Assembly (NCBI GenBank): GCA_030168595.1
Contig: CP115556.1
Location: forward strand, 930,001-994,000
Direction: 5' to 3'
Origin: Methanomassiliicoccales archaeon LGM-DZ1
Lineage (GTDB): Archaea; Thermoplasmatota; Thermoplasmata; Methanomassiliicoccales; Methanomethylophilaceae
Length of the DNA stretch: 64,000 nt
The notes beneath the pieces are model-generated. The model was not told the origin of the DNA. It did no database searches and saw nothing but the letters and a program-made list of their open reading frames with translations. Shown piece by piece: positions 4,061 through 13,403 of the stretch; within the stretch, counting starts at the first letter, position 1, and every line of letters starts with the position of its first letter. The translations under genes were made by a program, and so were the position numbers.

Positions 4061-4285
4061 GATTCGGAGAGGCCACATCGGGGGATACGGCCCTCCCCAT
4101 GGACTCGGAAAGCAGGCCTGGCATCTTCGGTGCAGCAGACCCTTGGAACCGCCCCGGACCCGGACCGATCGGGCCTTAAGGCAAGGCCCCTGGGGCGGCA
4201 ACAAGGCAATCCATAGATAGCCAGTCGAATCGCCAGTGAAATTATATTTCAATAACTATGTTATCATAAGGTCAATGTTCCCTGG

Positions 4286-4297
4286 ATCATATATGAT
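4286..4297 (+). promoter_or_regulatory. Palindromic TATA element, candidate promoter/operator of the defence island
   Basis: ATCATATATGAT is a perfect 12-bp palindrome 57 bp upstream of the first island gene. It contains a good TATA core and overlaps a GATC site (4285-4288). A start of transcription near 4320 would give a ~30-nt leader. Confidence 0.45.
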
Positions 4298-4353
4298 GGG
4301 CGGTGATGGCGACATCGATTCGATGACCGGGGCACCCGCATTCTTCACGACTT

Positions 4354-6174
4354 ATGTGCAGACCGAGCAAAATGCAGGGAGCGCATGCCGCCGCAAACAG
4401 GAGGACAAGGAACCTGATCGACCCATCCTCGCTTGATATCGCCCCCTCCGAATATTCGGATTTCAGATCATTGTGCCTCGATATCTATGATTTCGTGGCG
4501 AATGAAGATCACGCCAATCTCTTCAAACTGAAATCCAATTTCCCCGAGAACAAGTTCACGATGTTCGGTAAGGCCCTTGATGCCCTGATTTCGGACTCAT
4601 CCATTTCCAACGGGTTCTACGGATTCGTTGCAGGGCCGAGGCCGACGTTCATAGGGCCGGACGGCCGTCCGGAAGTTGACGGCCAGACTAAAGAAGGATG
4701 CGCAGAACGCATCGAACGCATCAAGGCCATCGATTCCGAAACCCACGGCATCCTCTCCCGCAAGGAGTTCTATAATCCTGCGTATGTGGTAGAGAAGACC
4801 ATCACATCCATGGGGAAAGGGACCCAGAAGACCATTCTGGAAAAGTTCTTCATCGAGAATTGGGAACTCGACGACATCGTCGGCGTATACGGGTCCGGCG
4901 CATTGAGCACCATAGATGAATTCAGCAAAAGGTTCTCGAAAGACCCGTTGGATGCAGAGTTCTTTGATGAATGCAATGTGCCGTCCAACGTCATGATCTA
5001 CCTGTGCAATCGGTCTCCGGCATACTACAGGCTGTTCCTGGTGAATTCCGATCCGGGATTCGGCGATGCCATGGAACGCATATTCCCGCTGATGCCGGGC
5101 ACAGCATTGAAAGTGCGCCTCTTCCCTAATTCAGAAGAGAGTATCGACCTCAACAGCCGCGCCATGTCGTACCTCGAGGAGTATATGAAGGCCCATGAAG
5201 GGAATGGCAGGTGCTTCGTCTCGGCCCTCCTCGCATTGTTCGACAACGTGCCCATCAAGAAGACCCAGGTGAAATGGATCTTCGGTAGCATGTGCGAATG
5301 GTTCAGGATGCCTCACCCCGTGTTCGAAGAGTGGGGGCCTTTATTTGATGATTTCCTGGAGACGAAAAGCACAGTCAAGTTCCTCTCTTACGATAACATC
5401 GAGTCGGCATGTTCCGTTCTGAACGGCATCAAGGAGATGGGGTACGGAGCATCGGTTGAGAAGATCTACGTGAAATGCGGCCAGGAACTCCTATCCAGCG
5501 GCATCGGAAACCAGGAGGAATTGGAAGATTTCCTGCTCAAGTACACCGGATTCCGTGTCGATAACGGACGCATCCTTGCCGGAGGTTCACTGAAGGAAGC
5601 GATCGAGCATTTCATCAGGGACGTCAAGGTCTATAACCCGGAGCACCTCAGGAAATTGTATATCCGTCGCTGCGGAGGCCCGACTGAGCAGATTAAACCG
5701 ATCATCGACTCCATAGACATCGGCAAGTTCGCTACCGGCAATGAACTGACTCAGGAAGAGGCCCGGAGCATAGAGGAAAAACTGTCTGAGTACGAGTGGA
5801 TATCCAAAGACAATGCCAGGTCCATATTCGCGGACCTCCACGAACTCGAGGACAAATTCACCGAGATGAACATGCACAGGCTCGGTTTCACGAGCATGCA
5901 GGACGTATATTTCAGAGCCAAGTACTCCTCGTTCGGCGAGTGCGTCCTGAAGTGCGAGTTCGTCGGGGACGAGATATACGTGGACGAGCGCAAGTTCAGG
6001 CTGAAGATGGACTGCAGCGCGTTCAGGCTCGAAGTCGAGAATCTGGAAAGATACCTCCACTGGATCCCTGTCTCCAAGTACAGGTACATCAATCTGGACT
6101 CTCCGAAAAATGCCAGATTCGCTGAGATATTGGTCGGATACAAGGAAAAGATAACGGAACTATGCAAGCATTAG
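4354..6174 (+). CDS. Large unknown island protein, part before an in-frame UAG
   Basis: I do not recognise a family. The 606 residues are soluble and mostly helical, with no membrane segment or nucleotide-binding motif visible. The reading frame stops at UAG (6172-6174), but codons continue uninterrupted in the same frame to 6618. This is the only UAG stop I found among the genes called here. I therefore think the true product is about 754 residues, made by UAG decoding (pyrrolysine) or readthrough; a nonsense mutation is the main alternative. The N-terminus is uncertain: ATG 4354, ATG 4372 or a later TTG near 4432 are possible. It is the first gene of a co-directional set with the ParB-like gene and the PLD-SNF2 helicase, so it probably belongs to the same system. 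Confidence 0.65.
   Translation: MCRPSKMQGAHAAANRRTRNLIDPSSLDIAPSEYSDFRSLCLDIYDFVANEDHANLFKLKSNFPENKFTMFGKALDALISDSSISNGFYGFVAGPRPTFIGPDGRPEVDGQTKEGCAERIERIKAIDSETHGILSRKEFYNPAYVVEKTITSMGKGTQKTILEKFFIENWELDDIVGVYGSGALSTIDEFSKRFSKDPLDAEFFDECNVPSNVMIYLCNRSPAYYRLFLVNSDPGFGDAMERIFPLMPGTALKVRLFPNSEESIDLNSRAMSYLEEYMKAHEGNGRCFVSALLALFDNVPIKKTQVKWIFGSMCEWFRMPHPVFEEWGPLFDDFLETKSTVKFLSYDNIESACSVLNGIKEMGYGASVEKIYVKCGQELLSSGIGNQEELEDFLLKYTGFRVDNGRILAGGSLKEAIEHFIRDVKVYNPEHLRKLYIRRCGGPTEQIKPIIDSIDIGKFATGNELTQEEARSIEEKLSEYEWISKDNARSIFADLHELEDKFTEMNMHRLGFTSMQDVYFRAKYSSFGECVLKCEFVGDEIYVDERKFRLKMDCSAFRLEVENLERYLHWIPVSKYRYINLDSPKNARFAEILVGYKEKITELCKH
6172..6174 (+). other. In-frame UAG: candidate pyrrolysine or readthrough codon
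   Basis: TAG is followed in frame by Phe-Thr-Thr-Pro-Tyr-Ser-Leu-Lys-Asn, then Met at 6202 and 138 more residues with normal coding character. No convincing ribosome-binding site precedes the Met codon at 6202. Methanomassiliicoccales are known to carry the Pyl system and to use UAG rarely as a stop. No pyl genes are in this window. Confidence 0.5.
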
Positions 6175-6618
6175 TTCACTACGCCTTATTCCCTGAAGAA
6201 CATGAAGATCGGCATCCCGGAGATCGATGACGATGATTACGGCATTGAGTTCTACGATGCGATGCTCATCGCCTCTAGAGCTAACCATCAGAACCTGGCC
6301 AAACAGCGTTTCTACTTCATACCCTCCGATGTCACAGGGTTCGGAGCGACCGCTCCGGAGTTCATACGTTATATAATCTACAACAATAACGGGCAGGCAA
6401 CAGTAAGCGAACTGCAGGACATCCTGGAGTCCGAATACGGGATAACGGCAAACATTAGCGTGGTGAGGACCCAGGCAAAGCTTTCGGCAAAGTTTTCGAC
6501 CTGCATATTCTCAGAAGAAACCGACACCGCATACCTAGACAGCGAGATTTACATGGAAGCGATTAGAAATGACCGACGACGTCATCGTGAACAAACCGGG
6601 CGTGATGCAGACCGATAA
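6175..6618 (+). CDS. C-terminal winged-helix-like part of the same large island protein
   Basis: This is the same frame as the preceding gene, directly after its UAG. The first in-frame ATG is at 6202, giving 138 residues if translated alone. It contains 'PEFIRYIIYNNNGQATVSEL', followed by 'EYGI', then an aromatic/acidic ending ('DSEIYMEAI'). This resembles the helix-turn-helix domain often found at the C-terminus of large defence-linked proteins, where it ends the chain rather than standing alone. The last ~17 residues are very basic and overlap the start of the ParB-like gene. If translated separately it would be an orphan wHTH protein; as a tail of the upstream gene it makes better sense. 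Confidence 0.6.
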   Translation, partial: FTTPYSLKNMKIGIPEIDDDDYGIEFYDAMLIASRANHQNLAKQRFYFIPSDVTGFGATAPEFIRYIIYNNNGQATVSELQDILESEYGITANISVVRTQAKLSAKFSTCIFSEETDTAYLDSEIYMEAIRNDRRRHREQTGRDADR

Positions 6619-7795
6619 GACCAAGACCGTGGTGATAGCGAGGAAATCAGAGACTTTCCCCGTCTACCGTGTCCCCCTCAAATACCTGTACTACAACAAA
6701 GAGAACGACCGCATCTCGACCGAGATTGTCCGCTACACCGAGGAGAACGGATGCGACATCGACAAGTTGTTCGACGAGGACCGCGAGAGATACAATCAGG
6801 TTCTGGAGGATATCATCGTCAAATCGAAACCGGATGCCATCGTCAAGACCCAGAAAAGCATCGCCACCCGCGGGCAGGACAACCCCGGCGTCACGCTCAG
6901 GGACGGGCGCGTCGTCGACGGCAACAGGAGGTTCAGCTGCCTCCGGAGGATCCAGAGGGACAGGAAACAAGAACAGTTCTTCGAGACGATAATCCTCGAT
7001 TACGACTACAAGAATGATTACAAGTACATCAAATCGCTCGAACTCGAGCTCCAGATGGGCGTAGACGAGAAGGTCAAGTACGATCCCGTCGACAAACTGT
7101 TCGGCGTGTACAACTCAATCCGCATAAAGAAAGCGTTCACGGTCGAAGAATATGCTGCCCTGTTCGATGATTACTCCGTGTCGGATGTGAAGAAGGACCT
7201 TGCTTTGGCAGACCTGATGAACGAATACCTTGAGTTCCAGGGAACACCGGGCAAATACTACATCGCCAAGGATATGGACCTCCAGGGAACGCTGTTCGAG
7301 ATCCCGGCCATCCTCGAGAAGGTGAACAAAAAGGACCCGGATCTGGTGGACGATGTGAAGACCCGCATATTCGCCAGCATCTGCGCCGGAGTCACTCCCA
7401 GGCTCAACCTCTTCATGAGGGACATCAAGGAGGTCATCGAAAAAGGAGACATCAAGAAATACCTCGATGACACCCAGGAAGCGGTCGACGAGACCATCCA
7501 GGCGCTCGATGAGAAGCCGATTGAAGATTACAACGATCTTGCCGACGGCATCAGGACACGCGACGACATCAAAGACAAACTGGTGACCCCTGTGGTGACC
7601 CAGAAGAAGGCTGTGGACTCCAGAAAGCTCAAGAAGGCCCCGCTGAAGAACTCGAATGAGGCCCTGATAGAGCTCAATGCCGTCCGCCTTGAATCCGTGT
7701 CCGAGATGAACGAGGATGACCGCAGGGAGCTCAAGAACGTGCTCGCCATGCTCGATGACAGGATCGCCGAGATAAGGAAGAGACTTGACGCTTAA
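6569..7795 (+). CDS. ParB/Srx-superfamily nuclease-like protein
   Basis: The 408-residue protein has an N-terminal ParB-like domain. Residues ~83-125 include 'TQKSIATRGQDNP' and 'DGRVVDGNRRFSCLRRI', matching the G-[H/N]-R-R nucleotide-binding/nuclease box of ParB/Srx folds. The remainder is helical and charged, ending in a likely coiled coil. It overlaps the preceding frame by up to 50 bp; ATG 6605 would cut this to 14 bp and is an equally plausible start. Its end overlaps the helicase start by 11 bp. ParB-like proteins of this type occur in defence and plasmid systems as CTPases or nucleases. Which activity applies here cannot be read from the sequence. Confidence 0.72.
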   Translation: MTDDVIVNKPGVMQTDKTKTVVIARKSETFPVYRVPLKYLYYNKENDRISTEIVRYTEENGCDIDKLFDEDRERYNQVLEDIIVKSKPDAIVKTQKSIATRGQDNPGVTLRDGRVVDGNRRFSCLRRIQRDRKQEQFFETIILDYDYKNDYKYIKSLELELQMGVDEKVKYDPVDKLFGVYNSIRIKKAFTVEEYAALFDDYSVSDVKKDLALADLMNEYLEFQGTPGKYYIAKDMDLQGTLFEIPAILEKVNKKDPDLVDDVKTRIFASICAGVTPRLNLFMRDIKEVIEKGDIKKYLDDTQEAVDETIQALDEKPIEDYNDLADGIRTRDDIKDKLVTPVVTQKKAVDSRKLKKAPLKNSNEALIELNAVRLESVSEMNEDDRRELKNVLAMLDDRIAEIRKRLDA

Positions 7796-10343
7796 ATCCA
7801 TAGACCTGAAGCCCCAGTACATCTCGCTCGAAGATGACGTGGCCGATCAGTTCTACATCCCCGTGATGAGCAACTGCACCCGCTTCGATAGGATATCCTG
7901 CTATTTCACCCTGGATGCTCTCGCGAAGTACTGCACGGGACTCTATTATCTCGGCAGGAACAACGGACGCTTCCGCCTCCTGATATCCCATGAGGTGTCC
8001 GAGGAGACGTTCAACGCTATCAGGGAAGGATACCGCCTGAGCCAATACCTGGACGGGATGGTGAAGGAGAGGATGCGCCAGGAGCTCAGCCTGGAGGATA
8101 CGGTCAAACTGTCGAACCTGGCATACCTGATGGAGTGCGGCCTTGTGGAGATCAAGTTCGCCATGTGCTGCAACGGGCTCTTCCACGAGAAGTCCGGCTA
8201 TGCTGAGGACTCCGAAGGCAACTGCCTATGCTTCAACGGATCGAACAACGAGACCAAGATGTCCTTCGACAGCAATTATGAGAAGTTCGAGGTGACAGCG
8301 TCATGGCTGTCCAGCGAGTTCGACAGAAGGAAGATCTCCGGCGAAAGGGAAGAGTTCGATTCGCTGTGGGGCGGAACGAACGTCCATGTGATAGTCTCCG
8401 ATCCGCCGGAATCCTTCGACAGGTACTTGATGTCGGTGAACAAAGGGAAACTGTTCAGAGATGCACAGGAATACCTGAATGATTGTTTCTACCTCGATAT
8501 CTCCGGAGGGACGATCCGCCTGTCGCTGCCCGAATCTGTCGAGAACCCGGGCAGGTTCAAGTTCAAACTGGCGGTCCAGGGCCTCGTAGACCGCATCGAG
8601 GGCAGGACCCTCGTGATGAAGCCCGAACTGCCGACCCGCTCGGTAAGGTCCATGATGGACAAGGTCGTCAGGGAGGCGGGCAAAGAAGACCGCGAGGTTT
8701 CCAAGAGCGACACGTTCATGAAGTATCTCTCAGAACACACTTCCATGGACCATCTGGCACTTCTCGGCATGTCGATAAAGCAGAGGGACCCGGGCCATCG
8801 GGAATACTTCGAGATGTTCAAGAAGGAGGTATCGAACATCACGGCTAGCGGCCTCCGCGACGAGCAGTTGTGGGACGCTTATTTCGCGTACAGGCTGAAG
8901 AAGAGCGCCAACTTCTCAGTGCCGGGATCAGGCAAGACCGCCACCGCGCTGGGCATGTTCGCTTTCCTCAACCGGACGGCAGGTGTCGATAAGCTGATCG
9001 TGATAGGCCCTCTGAACTCATTCGATTCGTGGATCACTGAGTTCAGGAGGGTGTTCGGAACGAACATCCCCCTCGATGCCGTGACGAGCACGGACCTGAG
9101 GAACATAGGCGGGACCATCCAGTACCATGTCAGGTTCGATCTCGGCAGGCATAACCTGGTCCTGATCAATTACGAGGCATTCGAGCATAACCTGGAACTC
9201 ACCGAGGCGCTCCGGAACCGTATCGATGACCGTACGATGCTGGTATTCGATGAGGTGCACCGCATCAAGGCCATCGGAGGGAAGCGTGCGGAAGGGGCGG
9301 TCCCCATAGCGAGGAACTCGAAGTACACCATCGTCATGACCGGCACCCCTATACCCAACAATTATGCGGACGTTTACAATTTCCTGCACATCCTCTACGG
9401 AGACGATTACGACGATTACTTCGTGCTCGGGCCCAAAGAGCTCTCGGAACTGAAGGGAGCGGACGCCAAGGATTTCAACAAGAAACTGCAGCCGTTCTAC
9501 TGCCGCACCACGAAGAACAAGCTGAACGTCCCGCCGGCCAATATGGACAATGTGCTGAGCCTCACAGCCTCTGCGAAGGAGAACGATCTCTTCAGAAAGC
9601 TCCATGAGTCCAAGATGAACCCCCTGGTGCTTATGGTCCGCATCCTCCAATTGGAATCCAACCCGATCATGCTCGGGGAGACTGCCCTCGAGGGGATCGA
9701 GGCCTCCTCGTTCTCCGATGACGGGGAGAAGCCCAGGCTGGAGGGCATGCGGGCCATAGAAGGCGCGGAGGACCTGATGACATCCAAGACGAAGGCCTGT
9801 GTCGACCTTGTGAGGTCACTCGCCTCATCGGGGAAAAGCGTCATCGTATGGTGCATCTTCGTCAGGTCCATCCGCACATTGGCACAGCTGCTGGAGGCCG
9901 AGGGGGCCTCTGTCTGCACCGTTTACGGCGATACCCCCGACCGGCAGACGGTCATCGACGGGTTCAAATCGGGCAGATATCAGGTTATGATCACCAACCC
10001 GCAGACCCTGGCCGAGTCCGTATCCCTCCATAATGTCTGCCACGATGCGGTGTATTTCGAATACAGCTACAATCTGGTCCACATGCTCCAGTCCAAGGAC
10101 CGCATACATCGGCTCGGCCTTGCAGAGGGGCAGTACACCCAGTACCATTTCCTGGAGACGCTGTTCGAGGACGATGGGAAGATGGTATCCCTTGACGAGG
10201 CCATACACGACAGCCTCGACCATAAGGAGAAGGTCATGCTCGATGCCATCGAGAACGACAGCCTCGAGCAGTTCGCCACCACTCGCGAGGAGATAGAGGA
10301 CCTCTTGGCATCTATAGGGTTCGACAGCGCCAAGTTCGAATGA
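7785..10343 (+). CDS. PLD-nuclease/SNF2-type helicase fusion
   Basis: The 852-residue protein starts at TTG, preceded by AAGGA and overlapping the ParB-like gene. An N-terminal phospholipase-D-like domain carries one H-x-K...G-S-N-N motif (from about residue 133), the active site used by PLD nucleases such as DISARM DrmC. A superfamily 2 motor follows: 'VPGSGKT' (Walker A, ~379), 'DEVH' (~489), 'MTGTP' (~518) and motif VI 'QSKDRIHRLG' (~769), which is the SNF2 form. The Walker A context differs from the usual DEMGLGKT of chromatin SNF2. Likely role: ATP-driven DNA translocation coupled to cleavage in a defence complex. Its stop codon lies 2 bp from that of the convergent Sau3AI-like gene, leaving no room for a terminator. 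Confidence 0.85.
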   Translation: MTLKSIDLKPQYISLEDDVADQFYIPVMSNCTRFDRISCYFTLDALAKYCTGLYYLGRNNGRFRLLISHEVSEETFNAIREGYRLSQYLDGMVKERMRQELSLEDTVKLSNLAYLMECGLVEIKFAMCCNGLFHEKSGYAEDSEGNCLCFNGSNNETKMSFDSNYEKFEVTASWLSSEFDRRKISGEREEFDSLWGGTNVHVIVSDPPESFDRYLMSVNKGKLFRDAQEYLNDCFYLDISGGTIRLSLPESVENPGRFKFKLAVQGLVDRIEGRTLVMKPELPTRSVRSMMDKVVREAGKEDREVSKSDTFMKYLSEHTSMDHLALLGMSIKQRDPGHREYFEMFKKEVSNITASGLRDEQLWDAYFAYRLKKSANFSVPGSGKTATALGMFAFLNRTAGVDKLIVIGPLNSFDSWITEFRRVFGTNIPLDAVTSTDLRNIGGTIQYHVRFDLGRHNLVLINYEAFEHNLELTEALRNRIDDRTMLVFDEVHRIKAIGGKRAEGAVPIARNSKYTIVMTGTPIPNNYADVYNFLHILYGDDYDDYFVLGPKELSELKGADAKDFNKKLQPFYCRTTKNKLNVPPANMDNVLSLTASAKENDLFRKLHESKMNPLVLMVRILQLESNPIMLGETALEGIEASSFSDDGEKPRLEGMRAIEGAEDLMTSKTKACVDLVRSLASSGKSVIVWCIFVRSIRTLAQLLEAEGASVCTVYGDTPDRQTVIDGFKSGRYQVMITNPQTLAESVSLHNVCHDAVYFEYSYNLVHMLQSKDRIHRLGLAEGQYTQYHFLETLFEDDGKMVSLDEAIHDSLDHKEKVMLDAIENDSLEQFATTREEIEDLLASIGFDSAKFE

Positions 10344-10345
10344 GT

Positions 10346-11704
10346 TTAGGGCAGGTCCCGTCGGCCTCGGTCGATCGTGTTCTGCCCGCTGACGACCTTC
10401 GCGATGTAAGTGTTCCTGAGCCAGAAGCACTTCTTAGTTTCCTCTCCGCCCTGGGGCGTGGAGAGGGTGTCTTTTTTGTTCTGACCGTGGGGCCTCACAT
10501 GGGCGATGGGGCTGTCCTTCGTCTTGGGAAGATGCATATAATCACCGGCGATGATCTTCTCCTTTGCCTCTTTCCAAACCCTCTCAGCCTCCTCCAGGTC
10601 CTCTTTCGGCATGTTCCAGAACAGCGCCCTTTTGAACACCAGCCCCGCATCGGCCTCCTGGAACACGATGAACAGGAACTTCTTCGTGAGGTCCTCATAG
10701 AAGTCCGATTCCTCCCACTCCTGCGATGCCACATCGGTGTACTTGAACACCCTGAAGGACATGCTCTCCTTGGGGACCCCGTCCTTCTTCAGACGGACGG
10801 TCTTCACGATGACCCCCGCCTTGGTCAGCTCGTCGATGCTGTCCCCAGTGACCTTGAGCATCCTTCTCACGAGGAAAGCATACCGCGATTTGCCCTCGGA
10901 CCCGTCGATATCGAGGAGCTCGGAAATCTCATCCACGGTCATCTCGTAGAATCCCTCGAACCTCGCGATGACCTCCTGCTCGAATGTGCGTTCCCTGCTC
11001 CAATCGCCCAGCGAATCTTCCAACCGCGTCTCCCCCCAGTGATTGAACAAGAACGTCACGAACGACGCCTTCAGCGCGAATGCCCTGCGCTGTGCCTTCA
11101 CCGGAGAGAAGGGCTGCTCTGTAAGGTCTTTTCCGTGCCCCTGCCCCTTCGGCGCGGCCTCGAGGTACATGGTCATGCCGCAGGAGATATCCTCGGCCCT
11201 GCCATTCCTGACCATGTCCGAGATCTTGTTCCAGTCCTCGTGCATGATCCTCAGGTCGCTGTCGGTGAACTCGATTATCTTGCATTTGAGGAACGTGTAA
11301 TCCAGACGGTTCTTCCCTTTTTCATAGAGGTAGAACATCAGGAGCATCCTCGAATCCTTCTCCATGAAGGAACCTTCGAAACCGCTGTCCAGGAGCGTCT
11401 TGTAGTTGATCAGGTTGAGGACCAGCCTCTCTTTCGCTACCAGGCCATTTTTCGATATCCTCTTCATCGGGGTCGTCTTCAGCTCCAGCCTCGCCTCTTC
11501 GAAATCCGGCACAGGTTCGTTGTTGCTGTCGATCCCGAAATACTCCGTCTCGACCAACTGGCCCAGACCGCCCTTCCCGTGCTTGGAATCCTCTATCCCG
11601 GGGACCGCCTCCCTCAGAGTGTGGCTAATCAGCTTCTCAGCGTACCTGAGGATGGATTCCGGATCCCTGTAGTCATAATCGACACGTCTGCTGGGCTTGG
11701 GCAT
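10346..11704 (-). CDS. Sau3AI/MutH-family type II restriction endonuclease
   Basis: At 452 residues this is the usual size of Sau3AI, which has a catalytic MutH-like domain and a second degenerate copy. The catalytic pattern is visible near the N-terminus: D67 in 'VPDFEE', then E74-L-K76 followed by 'TTPM', the D...E-x-K of MutH/Sau3AI. Family members cleave GATC, but the exact specificity here is not shown by the sequence. The start ATG at 11704 gives MPKPSRR; the longer frame upstream would overlap the divergent Vsr gene. It shares a 42-bp control region with vsr and lies with the C5 methyltransferase, completing a restriction-modification set. Confidence 0.85.
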   Translation of the reverse strand: MPKPSRRVDYDYRDPESILRYAEKLISHTLREAVPGIEDSKHGKGGLGQLVETEYFGIDSNNEPVPDFEEARLELKTTPMKRISKNGLVAKERLVLNLINYKTLLDSGFEGSFMEKDSRMLLMFYLYEKGKNRLDYTFLKCKIIEFTDSDLRIMHEDWNKISDMVRNGRAEDISCGMTMYLEAAPKGQGHGKDLTEQPFSPVKAQRRAFALKASFVTFLFNHWGETRLEDSLGDWSRERTFEQEVIARFEGFYEMTVDEISELLDIDGSEGKSRYAFLVRRMLKVTGDSIDELTKAGVIVKTVRLKKDGVPKESMSFRVFKYTDVASQEWEESDFYEDLTKKFLFIVFQEADAGLVFKRALFWNMPKEDLEEAERVWKEAKEKIIAGDYMHLPKTKDSPIAHVRPHGQNKKDTLSTPQGGEETKKCFWLRNTYIAKVVSGQNTIDRGRRDLP

Positions 11705-11746
11705 AGCACGATTATATCGTATTCCAACGTAAATACTGCTTGTCCG
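11705..11746. promoter_or_regulatory. Bidirectional promoter between endonuclease and Vsr genes
   Basis: Only 42 bp separate two divergent start codons. The inverted repeat ACGAT-TAT-ATCGT (11708-11720) contains a TATA-like core ~30 bp upstream of the Vsr ATG. A second TATA-like element, AGTATTTACG read leftward (11729-11738), lies ~30 bp from the endonuclease ATG. Both transcripts would be nearly leaderless, and binding at the repeat could affect both genes. Confidence 0.45.
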
Positions 11747-12226
11747 ATGCTGAAACGTATGAGGCCGTCCGTTAGGGACAAACGCTCTCCTGTCCCGCTC
11801 AATGAGAACACCGTGAAATCCATGCAGGGCAACCGCAGGAAGGACACGGGACCGGAGATTGAGGTCCGGAAGATGCTCCGGGAAATGGGATATCCGGGAT
11901 ACCGCCTGCAATGGAAGGCCCCCGGCCACCCGGACATCGCTTACCCGGGAAGGAAGATAGCCATCCTTGTGAACGGATGCTTCTGGCACAGATGCCCCAA
12001 GTGCAATCTCCCCATGCCGGAGCACAATCGCGATTACTGGACGAAGAAGTTCGACTACAATGTCCGCCACGACCGCGAGACGCTCGAAGCGCTGCAGGCC
12101 GATGGATGGACCGTCGTCGTGATATGGGGATGCGAGGTGAAGAAGGAGCCGAACCTGATCAGGAAGAGGATTTCCGCCGCTTTTTCCGGCCATCGATCTC
12201 CAGGATCCTCTCCCCCATCCTGGTGA
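11747..12226 (+). CDS. vsr: Very short patch repair endonuclease (Vsr)
   Basis: Vsr nicks DNA 5' of T in T:G mismatches left by deamination of 5-methylcytosine, which fits the adjacent C5 methyltransferase. The 159 residues contain the family core: 'DTGPEIEVRKML' (N-terminal helix with E), 'GHPDIAYPGRKIAILVNGCFWH' with catalytic Asp and zinc ligands H/C, and 'GWTVVVIWGCEV'. Start ATG 11747 or 11759. The 3' end overlaps the convergent methyltransferase gene by 68 bp. Confidence 0.9.
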   Translation: MLKRMRPSVRDKRSPVPLNENTVKSMQGNRRKDTGPEIEVRKMLREMGYPGYRLQWKAPGHPDIAYPGRKIAILVNGCFWHRCPKCNLPMPEHNRDYWTKKFDYNVRHDRETLEALQADGWTVVVIWGCEVKKEPNLIRKRISAAFSGHRSPGSSPPSW

Positions 12227-13403
12227 TGAGCGGGACCACGAGCGCATTCCCCATGCAGAAATAACGCTGGCGGTCGGTCATCCCGGTATCGGTCCATCCG
12301 GCCGGGAAGCCGTTGATCTTCTCTGCTTCCTCAGGGGTTATCATCCTGTACCTCTGGGTCTTCTCATCGAGGACTACATGGCTGGAACGGTTCTTCGTTC
12401 CCTCCGAGGTCAGCATCGTCCTCGCTGCGCGGCCGAGTATGTCCGGATAGGGTATCGCGCCTTCCGTGTACAGGTAGTGTTTTCCGTTGGAATGCTCCCG
12501 GTCGATCTTTTTGGCACCTTTCATGTATTCCCATTTCTGGAGATCGTCCTCGGCGATGTAGTACTTATCCGGAACGTCCGAATCCAGGAGCTTCCCGAGC
12601 GGCAAGCGGCACTCCTCATACATCGGCACATAGTCCCTTGTGTACACATCGTGGCCCTGCATCACGCCCGCATGATAGAAGTGCCCGCTGAAGTTGTCCG
12701 ATATATCAGTGAGATCCCCGTATTTCTCGCAGGAGACCGAGTAGACCTCCATGGAATTCTCAGGGACCTCCTTCTCCATCGGGAATTTGGTCGCGAAGAA
12801 ACCGGTCTTGGTGAGTATTTTCTCCGGGCCCTCGTTCAACCGATCCTGAGCGAACGCATGGTCTTTTCTGCAGCCGAATATGAACGTCCTCCTCCTACGC
12901 TGCTGGAATCCGTAATCGGCGGCATTGATCACACGCCACTCCACATAATAGTCCTTGTCGGCCAGGCACCTGAGGATTATCGCGAAATCGCGCCCCCGCT
13001 GGTTGACAGGGGAGCGCAGAAGGCGGTCCACGTTCTCCAATAGCAGGTACTTGGGGCGGAGGGCCCCGACGATATGATCGATGTTCCACCATAGGACCCC
13101 CTTCTTCCCCTCGATACCGCGGGCCCTGGTGGACGCCACGGAATAATCCTGGCAGGGGAACCCGCCGACCAGAAGGTCGTGCTCGGGGACCTGGTCCTGG
13201 ACCTCGTTGATGTCGACGTTTACATTGACAGACCCAGTGCCTGCGAAATGACGGTTATAGCAATCGAAGGCGAACTGGTTCTTCCTGCCGGGCTCCCACT
13301 GGTCCGCCCAGACCGTCCTGAAGCGATCGGACGCATCCTCGAGCCCCACCCGAAATCCGCCGACACCGGCGAAGAGCTCGACGACCCTGATCTCCTTTGC
13401 CAT
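12159..13403 (-). CDS. DNA (cytosine-5) methyltransferase
   Basis: All main C5-MTase motifs are present in order: I 'ELFAGVGGF', IV 'GGFPCQDYS' with the catalytic Cys, VI 'ENVDRLL', VIII 'QRRRR', and X 'GNALVVPLI' near the C-terminus. The target-recognition region lies between VIII and IX, about residues 180-310. At 414 residues it is a complete type II enzyme and is expected to protect DNA from the linked Sau3AI-like endonuclease, which would imply modification of GATC. The gene has its own promoter with a palindrome containing GATC sites. Confidence 0.93.
   Translation of the reverse strand: MAKEIRVVELFAGVGGFRVGLEDASDRFRTVWADQWEPGRKNQFAFDCYNRHFAGTGSVNVNVDINEVQDQVPEHDLLVGGFPCQDYSVASTRARGIEGKKGVLWWNIDHIVGALRPKYLLLENVDRLLRSPVNQRGRDFAIILRCLADKDYYVEWRVINAADYGFQQRRRRTFIFGCRKDHAFAQDRLNEGPEKILTKTGFFATKFPMEKEVPENSMEVYSVSCEKYGDLTDISDNFSGHFYHAGVMQGHDVYTRDYVPMYEECRLPLGKLLDSDVPDKYYIAEDDLQKWEYMKGAKKIDREHSNGKHYLYTEGAIPYPDILGRAARTMLTSEGTKNRSSHVVLDEKTQRYRMITPEEAEKINGFPAGWTDTGMTDRQRYFCMGNALVVPLITRMGERILEIDGRKKRRKSSS

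Follow-up and report, generated by a model that had tools for sequence, protein, structure and literature searches.

We found that a gene in a restriction-type defense island of a gut-type methanogenic archaeon contains an in-frame UAG that is probably translated as pyrrolysine (Pyl), at least part of the time, which would give one protein of ∼754 amino acids. The gene lies in the window, by which we mean the whole 64,000-nucleotide stretch analyzed (C1:930001-994000), and the genome is a single contig of 1,768,094 bases with 99.7% completeness. Read directly, the plus-strand frame begins with ATG at 4354, reaches TAG at 6172-6174, goes on for another 147 codons, and closes with TAA at 6616-6618 (Table 1). 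A sequence-only reading of the window had picked out this TAG and the coding frame behind it, and both held up: most of the 147 codons are homologous to the corresponding part of the gene in relatives. The frame after the UAG is confirmed as protein-coding beyond chance; its codon score was +0.15 per codon, and the two other frames scored about -0.6. The C-terminal end is the most conserved stretch of the protein. Because the relatives' proteins stop ∼12 codons sooner, near window position 6580, the last residues (RHREQTGRDADR) are a lineage-specific tail, and because two relatives start at the residue aligned with window codon 21 (CTG at 4414), the first 20 residues are uncertain. The sequence after the UAG contained no special or stable RNA structure (z = -0.44) and no PYLIS-like structure; none is required for read-through.

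Table 1 Features of the window (positions without prefix) and of the pyrrolysine machinery elsewhere in the genome.
Feature	Position	Strand	Details
UAG-bearing gene, read through UAG	4354..6618	+	∼754 aa; putative diverged member of the "sigma factor-like helix-turn-helix DNA-binding protein" group
In-frame TAG (UAG)	6172..6174	+	protein position 607; CGG/CAG/AAA in three relatives (codon alignment, translations)
Downstream part	6175..6579	+	homologous to the relatives' C-terminal domain
ParB-like protein	6569..7795	+	408 aa, VDGNRRF motif; start overlaps end of UAG-bearing gene
HKD (phospholipase-D-like) nuclease fused to SNF2/SF2 helicase	7785..10343	+	
Sau3AI/MutH-family type II restriction endonuclease	10346..11827	-	NCBIfam NF040973 4.2e-123 (above cut-off), Pfam MutH 5.1e-29
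Vsr very-short-patch repair endonuclease	11777..12226	+	Pfam Vsr 4.1e-14, PADLOC Vsr 2.5e-13
C5-cytosine DNA methyltransferase (Dcm)	12159..13403	-	Pfam DNA_methylase 2.6e-61, PADLOC MTase_II 6.7e-162
pylS	C1:1703933-1704619		268 bits, cut-off 178
pylC, pylD	directly after pylS		reading frames assigned by position, frame, and sequence, without family search
pylT	just before pylS, L011 about 5698-5768		CTCTAAAACC carries CUA anticodon
pylB	C1:663176-664183		421 bits, cut-off 348

Relatives of the gene were sought in 147 genomes of the order. Homologues were present in three other genomes, all Methanomethylophilaceae, and direct search returned none outside this family. The nearest is in Candidatus Methanomethylophilus sp. 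1R26, which belongs to the same species cluster; the others are in a genome of the same genus (G043) and one of another genus (G121). The earlier reading had proposed that a sense codon at this column in full-length homologues would support one protein, and that homologues ending at the UAG, with a separate gene behind it, would argue against it. In our codon alignment, the column held CGG (Arg) in 1R26, CAG (Gln) in G043, and AAA (Lys) in G121, and no relative ends there. The gene runs as one ORF without a break in G043 (721 aa) and G121 (731 aa). The 1R26 copy has a frameshift near codon 104, which is probably an assembly fault because thyX, a TraB-like gene, dcm, and the helicase gene are also frameshifted in that contig (L010 4870-16854). 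Apparent TAA and TGA codons inside the relatives' matches were rejected as internal stops, since the translations placed them at natural gene ends or before starts. Among these orthologues, the UAG is present only in the window's genome, and it therefore does not mark a conserved, catalytic Pyl position. pylS is present in all three relatives, so their sense codons do not stem from a lack of Pyl.

The two parts of the gene were compared for signs of selection. After the UAG, identity was 79% to the copy of the same species, 67% to that of the same genus, and 64% to that of the other genus, over 131 to 135 codons; for the two other species, these values of 64 to 67% compare with 47 to 50% before the UAG. 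Relative to 1R26, the part after the UAG gave dN 0.11, dS 1.25, and dN/dS 0.09, and the part before it gave dN/dS 0.20. At sites where the two outgroups agree, we counted 3 changes on the window's branch and 7 on the 1R26 branch after the UAG, versus 9 and 17 before it (Fisher p = 1). Judged from these substitutions, purifying selection acts on the downstream part, and the branch counts argue against any relaxation of it in the window's lineage. The branch comparison does not date the UAG.

The earlier reading had also suggested looking for the pyl genes, and pylT, pylS, pylB, pylC, and pylD were all present, with pylS and pylB both above curated cut-offs. The single-copy pylT was missed by ARAGORN and Rfam in this genome and was located by its CTCTAA anticodon loop. 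In the adjoining mtbB, codon 202 is an in-frame UAG, and mttB has its usual in-frame UAG too. pylB lies ∼1 Mb from the pylT-pylS-pylC-pylD cluster (C1:1703697-1706702); on a circular contig the distance in the opposite direction would be 0.73 Mb. By contrast, other members of the order are described as having an unbroken pyl operon (PMC5011839). Two identical ORF stretches, a repeated segment (L011 1447-1917, 2266-2736), lie upstream of mtb/pyl, and a decayed methyltransferase-like fragment stands directly before pylT (L011 5120-5660).

We surveyed the use of UAG in 20 segments of 20 kb plus the window, 464 kb in all or 26% of the genome, with a home-made gene caller based on codon usage. This caller also makes spurious wrong-strand calls, which inflate the raw TAG share of 6.5%, and we therefore rely on a stricter set, limited to strongly scoring genes of 100 aa or more. 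TAG makes up 20% of all stop trinucleotides in the sample and only 2% of the first stops in these well-supported genes (6/292). The statement in the earlier reading that nearly all genes in the window end in TGA or TAA agrees with our hand-made list, in which 35 of the 36 other genes do and none ends in TAG (the end of truA was unread). Five of the seven well-supported genes of at least 100 aa that meet a TAG, counting one lower-scoring transposase, extend beyond it as a single protein, namely mtbB, mttB, galE, the transposase, and the gene described here. The other two (C1:1061454-1061939 and C1:1168105-1168734) seem to end at TAG, so UAG seems to be ambiguous in this genome and not fully reassigned. 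A 2025 Science paper reportedly describes archaea that read all TAG codons as Pyl. Over all calls, judged by eye, 5 of 24 frames ran on past TAG versus 0 of 344 past TAA or TGA (Fisher p = 8e-7); where coding sequence followed a TAA or TGA, it looked in every case like the next gene with its own start. Every internal stop recognized in the sample was thus a TAG. The UAG in galE (UDP-glucose 4-epimerase, C1:560818-561861) is codon 157, between HP and VPINPYG; solved epimerases align straight over it, and the best matches among relatives lack it, which makes galE a further candidate for a Pyl protein other than a methyltransferase. The transposase (C1:1524589-1525209 plus its extension, minus strand) resembles the Pyl transposases of Methanosarcina and ISO4-H5.

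We explain these observations as follows. PylB, PylC, and PylD would make pyrrolysine and PylS would charge tRNA-Pyl(CUA), which would compete with release factor at the UAG at 6172 and insert Pyl at position 607. The product would be a single ∼754-aa sigma4/wHTH-type DNA-binding component of a three-gene module, which probably helps to recognize or process invading DNA alongside a Sau3AI-type restriction-modification system. The lineage rarely uses UAG as a stop, and a neutral substitution such as CAG to TAG is the most likely origin of the codon. The Arg, Gln, and Lys of the relatives point to a tolerant position and a neutral arrival, and because the site is variable and polar, Pyl, itself a lysine derivative, is probably tolerated there and not catalytic. 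The claim that the UAG is read as Pyl within one protein thus stands as regards the single protein and the machinery, and we infer the pyrrolysine itself. As to how efficient such decoding can be, a UAG introduced without special context in Methanosarcina acetivorans gave 20 to 30% full-length product from an unadapted reporter (PMC2933860), and UAG is translated up to 97% in methyltransferases (PMC8211752). A 606-aa product would lose the most conserved domain, so the activity of the protein should depend on read-through.

We considered whether the UAG is instead a recent nonsense mutation in a gene that is being lost, with a nonfunctional 606-aa product irrespective of any weak suppression. 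Defense genes are frequently lost, the module is patchy (4/147 genomes), and a very recent nonsense mutation, confined like this UAG to one genome, would look identical to the read-through that we favor. However, no second lesion was found in the 754 codons, the downstream part is still constrained, the partner genes remain whole, a working Pyl cassette keeps a UAG from being a clean null, and the sample yielded no internal TAA or TGA. We consider such a loss unlikely. The earlier reading had gone further in the other direction and proposed that the UAG could tie the activity of the system to Pyl supply. If selection kept the UAG as a switch of this kind, full-length protein and defense would depend on methylamine and Pyl, phage resistance would follow methylamine supply, and the module would act only while Pyl-tRNA is plentiful. 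A truncated protein would lack the most conserved domain, and output should therefore scale with Pyl decoding, but the UAG is confined to a single lineage, relatives that carry pylS and share the partner genes have a codon for Arg, Gln, or Lys, and nothing that we observed suggests regulation. The in-frame UAGs scattered in galE and the transposase also fit neutral spread, and low use of TAG as a stop has been interpreted as indicating that Pyl is decoded constitutively (PMC4153887). This makes a switch very improbable. A sequencing or assembly error over a true sense codon is less probable again; TAG is one base from the CAG (Gln) of one relative, but the window's genome is one near-complete contig in which the conserved window genes are intact, and the error-prone assembly is that of 1R26. 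Finally, it is scarcely credible that the locus makes a 606-aa protein ending at the UAG plus a separate 138-aa C-terminal protein from the ATG at 6202, nine codons past the UAG, since the relatives have a single ORF over the site, a restart there would lose the conserved stretch F608-N616, and no ribosome site precedes it. The earlier reading was right about this missing ribosome site, but its absence tells us nothing, given that a clear site is likewise missing at the starts at 4354, 6569, and 7785.

We return to the protein that read-through would produce and to its neighbors. It had no match in PDB, Pfam, NCBIfam, PHROGs, or PADLOC families, and BLASTP against an Enterococcus faecalis protein found nothing; profile-profile comparison alone matched it to four Bacilli proteins, over columns 341 to 736, spanning the UAG (E = 4.8e-6, score 57, versus at most 23.3 for 12 column shuffles and a reversed profile). 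At least two of the four come from the same operon context, and the order in E. faecalis is an 864-aa "sigma factor-like HTH DNA-binding protein," a ParB-like protein, and an SNF2 helicase. The archaeal protein shares with this group homology in the C-terminal half and a place before ParB-like and SNF2 genes. The Bacilli protein has a sigma-70 region 4 HTH, which the archaeal one does not: Pfam Sigma70_r4 matches the N-terminal half of the E. faecalis protein (3.1e-8) and had no match in the archaeal one, which for this reason appears to be a diverged relative, and not a plain member, of the group. The C-terminal domain had been called wHTH-like; the helix-helix-helix-strand-strand order around residues 667 to 728 fits a winged helix, but the AlphaFold2 model, built from two sequences, has a mean pLDDT of 36, and the label is therefore tentative.

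The end of the gene overlaps the ParB-like gene, and this overlap is kept in relatives, which suggests coupled translation and one operon. Relatives of the ParB-like protein on Bacilli plasmids are annotated as ParB/RepB/Spo0J or as having a ParB N-terminal domain. The helicase matched Pfam SNF2-rel_dom (3.8e-14) and Helicase_C (8.4e-9) and, on N-terminal residues 3 to 220, PADLOC PbeA (5.2e-61); no PADLOC model matched the ParB-like or the archaeal sigma4-like partner. In Methanomethylophilaceae and on Bacilli plasmids, a ParB-like protein repeatedly accompanies an SNF2 helicase, which may or may not have an HKD domain, and a large sigma4/wHTH-like protein frequently precedes the two. Because this ParB-SNF2 pair lies beside Sau3AI systems, one type I system, and one type III system and near a dcm and vsr pair, the sigma4/ParB/HKD-SNF2 module has the look of an accessory to restriction-modification loci; its presumed action on DNA is suggested by its domains. 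Compared with 1R26 (window 4206-10343 versus L010), the flanks and the Sau3AI system are mostly 94 to 98% identical and the module ∼78 to 86% (protein), a difference which suggests that the three genes are a swapped or fast-evolving allele within the species cluster. The module is little described and may merit its own study.

In comparison with known systems, the window has the Sau3AI/MutH-family endonuclease together with the C5-cytosine methyltransferase of a Sau3AI-type restriction-modification system, and Vsr as well (10346-13403); the adjoining three-gene module is extra, and all these genes are likewise grouped in G043 and G121. With PbeABCD, the helicase shares the N-terminal HKD nuclease domain of PbeA and an SF2 helicase (PMC6459918; domain reading, PMC10853773). 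However, no PbeB, PbeC (CxC ABC ATPase), or PbeD (DndE-like) adjoins it, and in Pfam and PADLOC the neighboring genes matched neither PbeC nor PbeD; the island instead has the ParB-like and sigma4/wHTH-like proteins, and no dnd genes were seen in it.

The UAG itself also has precedents. A Pyl protein in a defense locus had been thought unusual by the sequence-only reading, but Cas1 (PMC4153887) and Cas3 (PMC5011839) were reported in 2014 and 2016. "Ca. Methanomethylophilus alvus" has a putative Pyl Cas1 (AGI85630) and 15 other candidates that are not methyltransferases (PMC4153887, Table 7), and Borrel et al. (2014) argued that an amber, once it appears in a genome of this kind, is a stable mutation (PMC4153887). 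Our case resembles this Cas1 in its order, in an amber outside methylamine metabolism in a defense gene, in its amber-free homologues, and in very low use of TAG as a stop; Cas1 differs in belonging to another gene family and to an adaptive system. In ISO4-H5, a rumen member of the Methanomassiliicoccales, 46 genes contain an amber, among them Cas3 and ten insertion sequences. With its ambers in defense, sugar, lipid, and insertion-sequence genes it resembles the present case; that set is an annotation list without per-gene alignment to relatives in the text (PMC5011839), whereas the present gene was aligned. Amber genes reported earlier also include Thg1, transposases, Fic, and lipid and sugar enzymes. 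According to PMC2933860, the UAG of Thg1 in M. acetivorans was observed experimentally to be read as Pyl (Heinemann et al. 2009, cited there), Pyl is not essential for its activity, and a neutral-evolution model was put forward. As in Thg1, one lineage gained a UAG in a gene unrelated to methylamines; the Pyl of Thg1 was seen by experiment and that at position 607 is deduced.

The gene is thus most likely not categorically new and joins the known amber genes of this group outside methylamine metabolism, to which it adds a well-supported case, with the exact sense codon in relatives, of UAG as an ordinary sense codon in Methanomassiliicoccales. Standard annotation truncates such genes, and a table 11 gene caller would split this one in two. 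If the module is antiviral, the UAG would limit its transfer to cells without the Pyl system, and such genes bear on whether Pyl decoding became hard to lose through unrelated genes that depend on it, a question raised by Borrel et al. (2014; PMC4153887).
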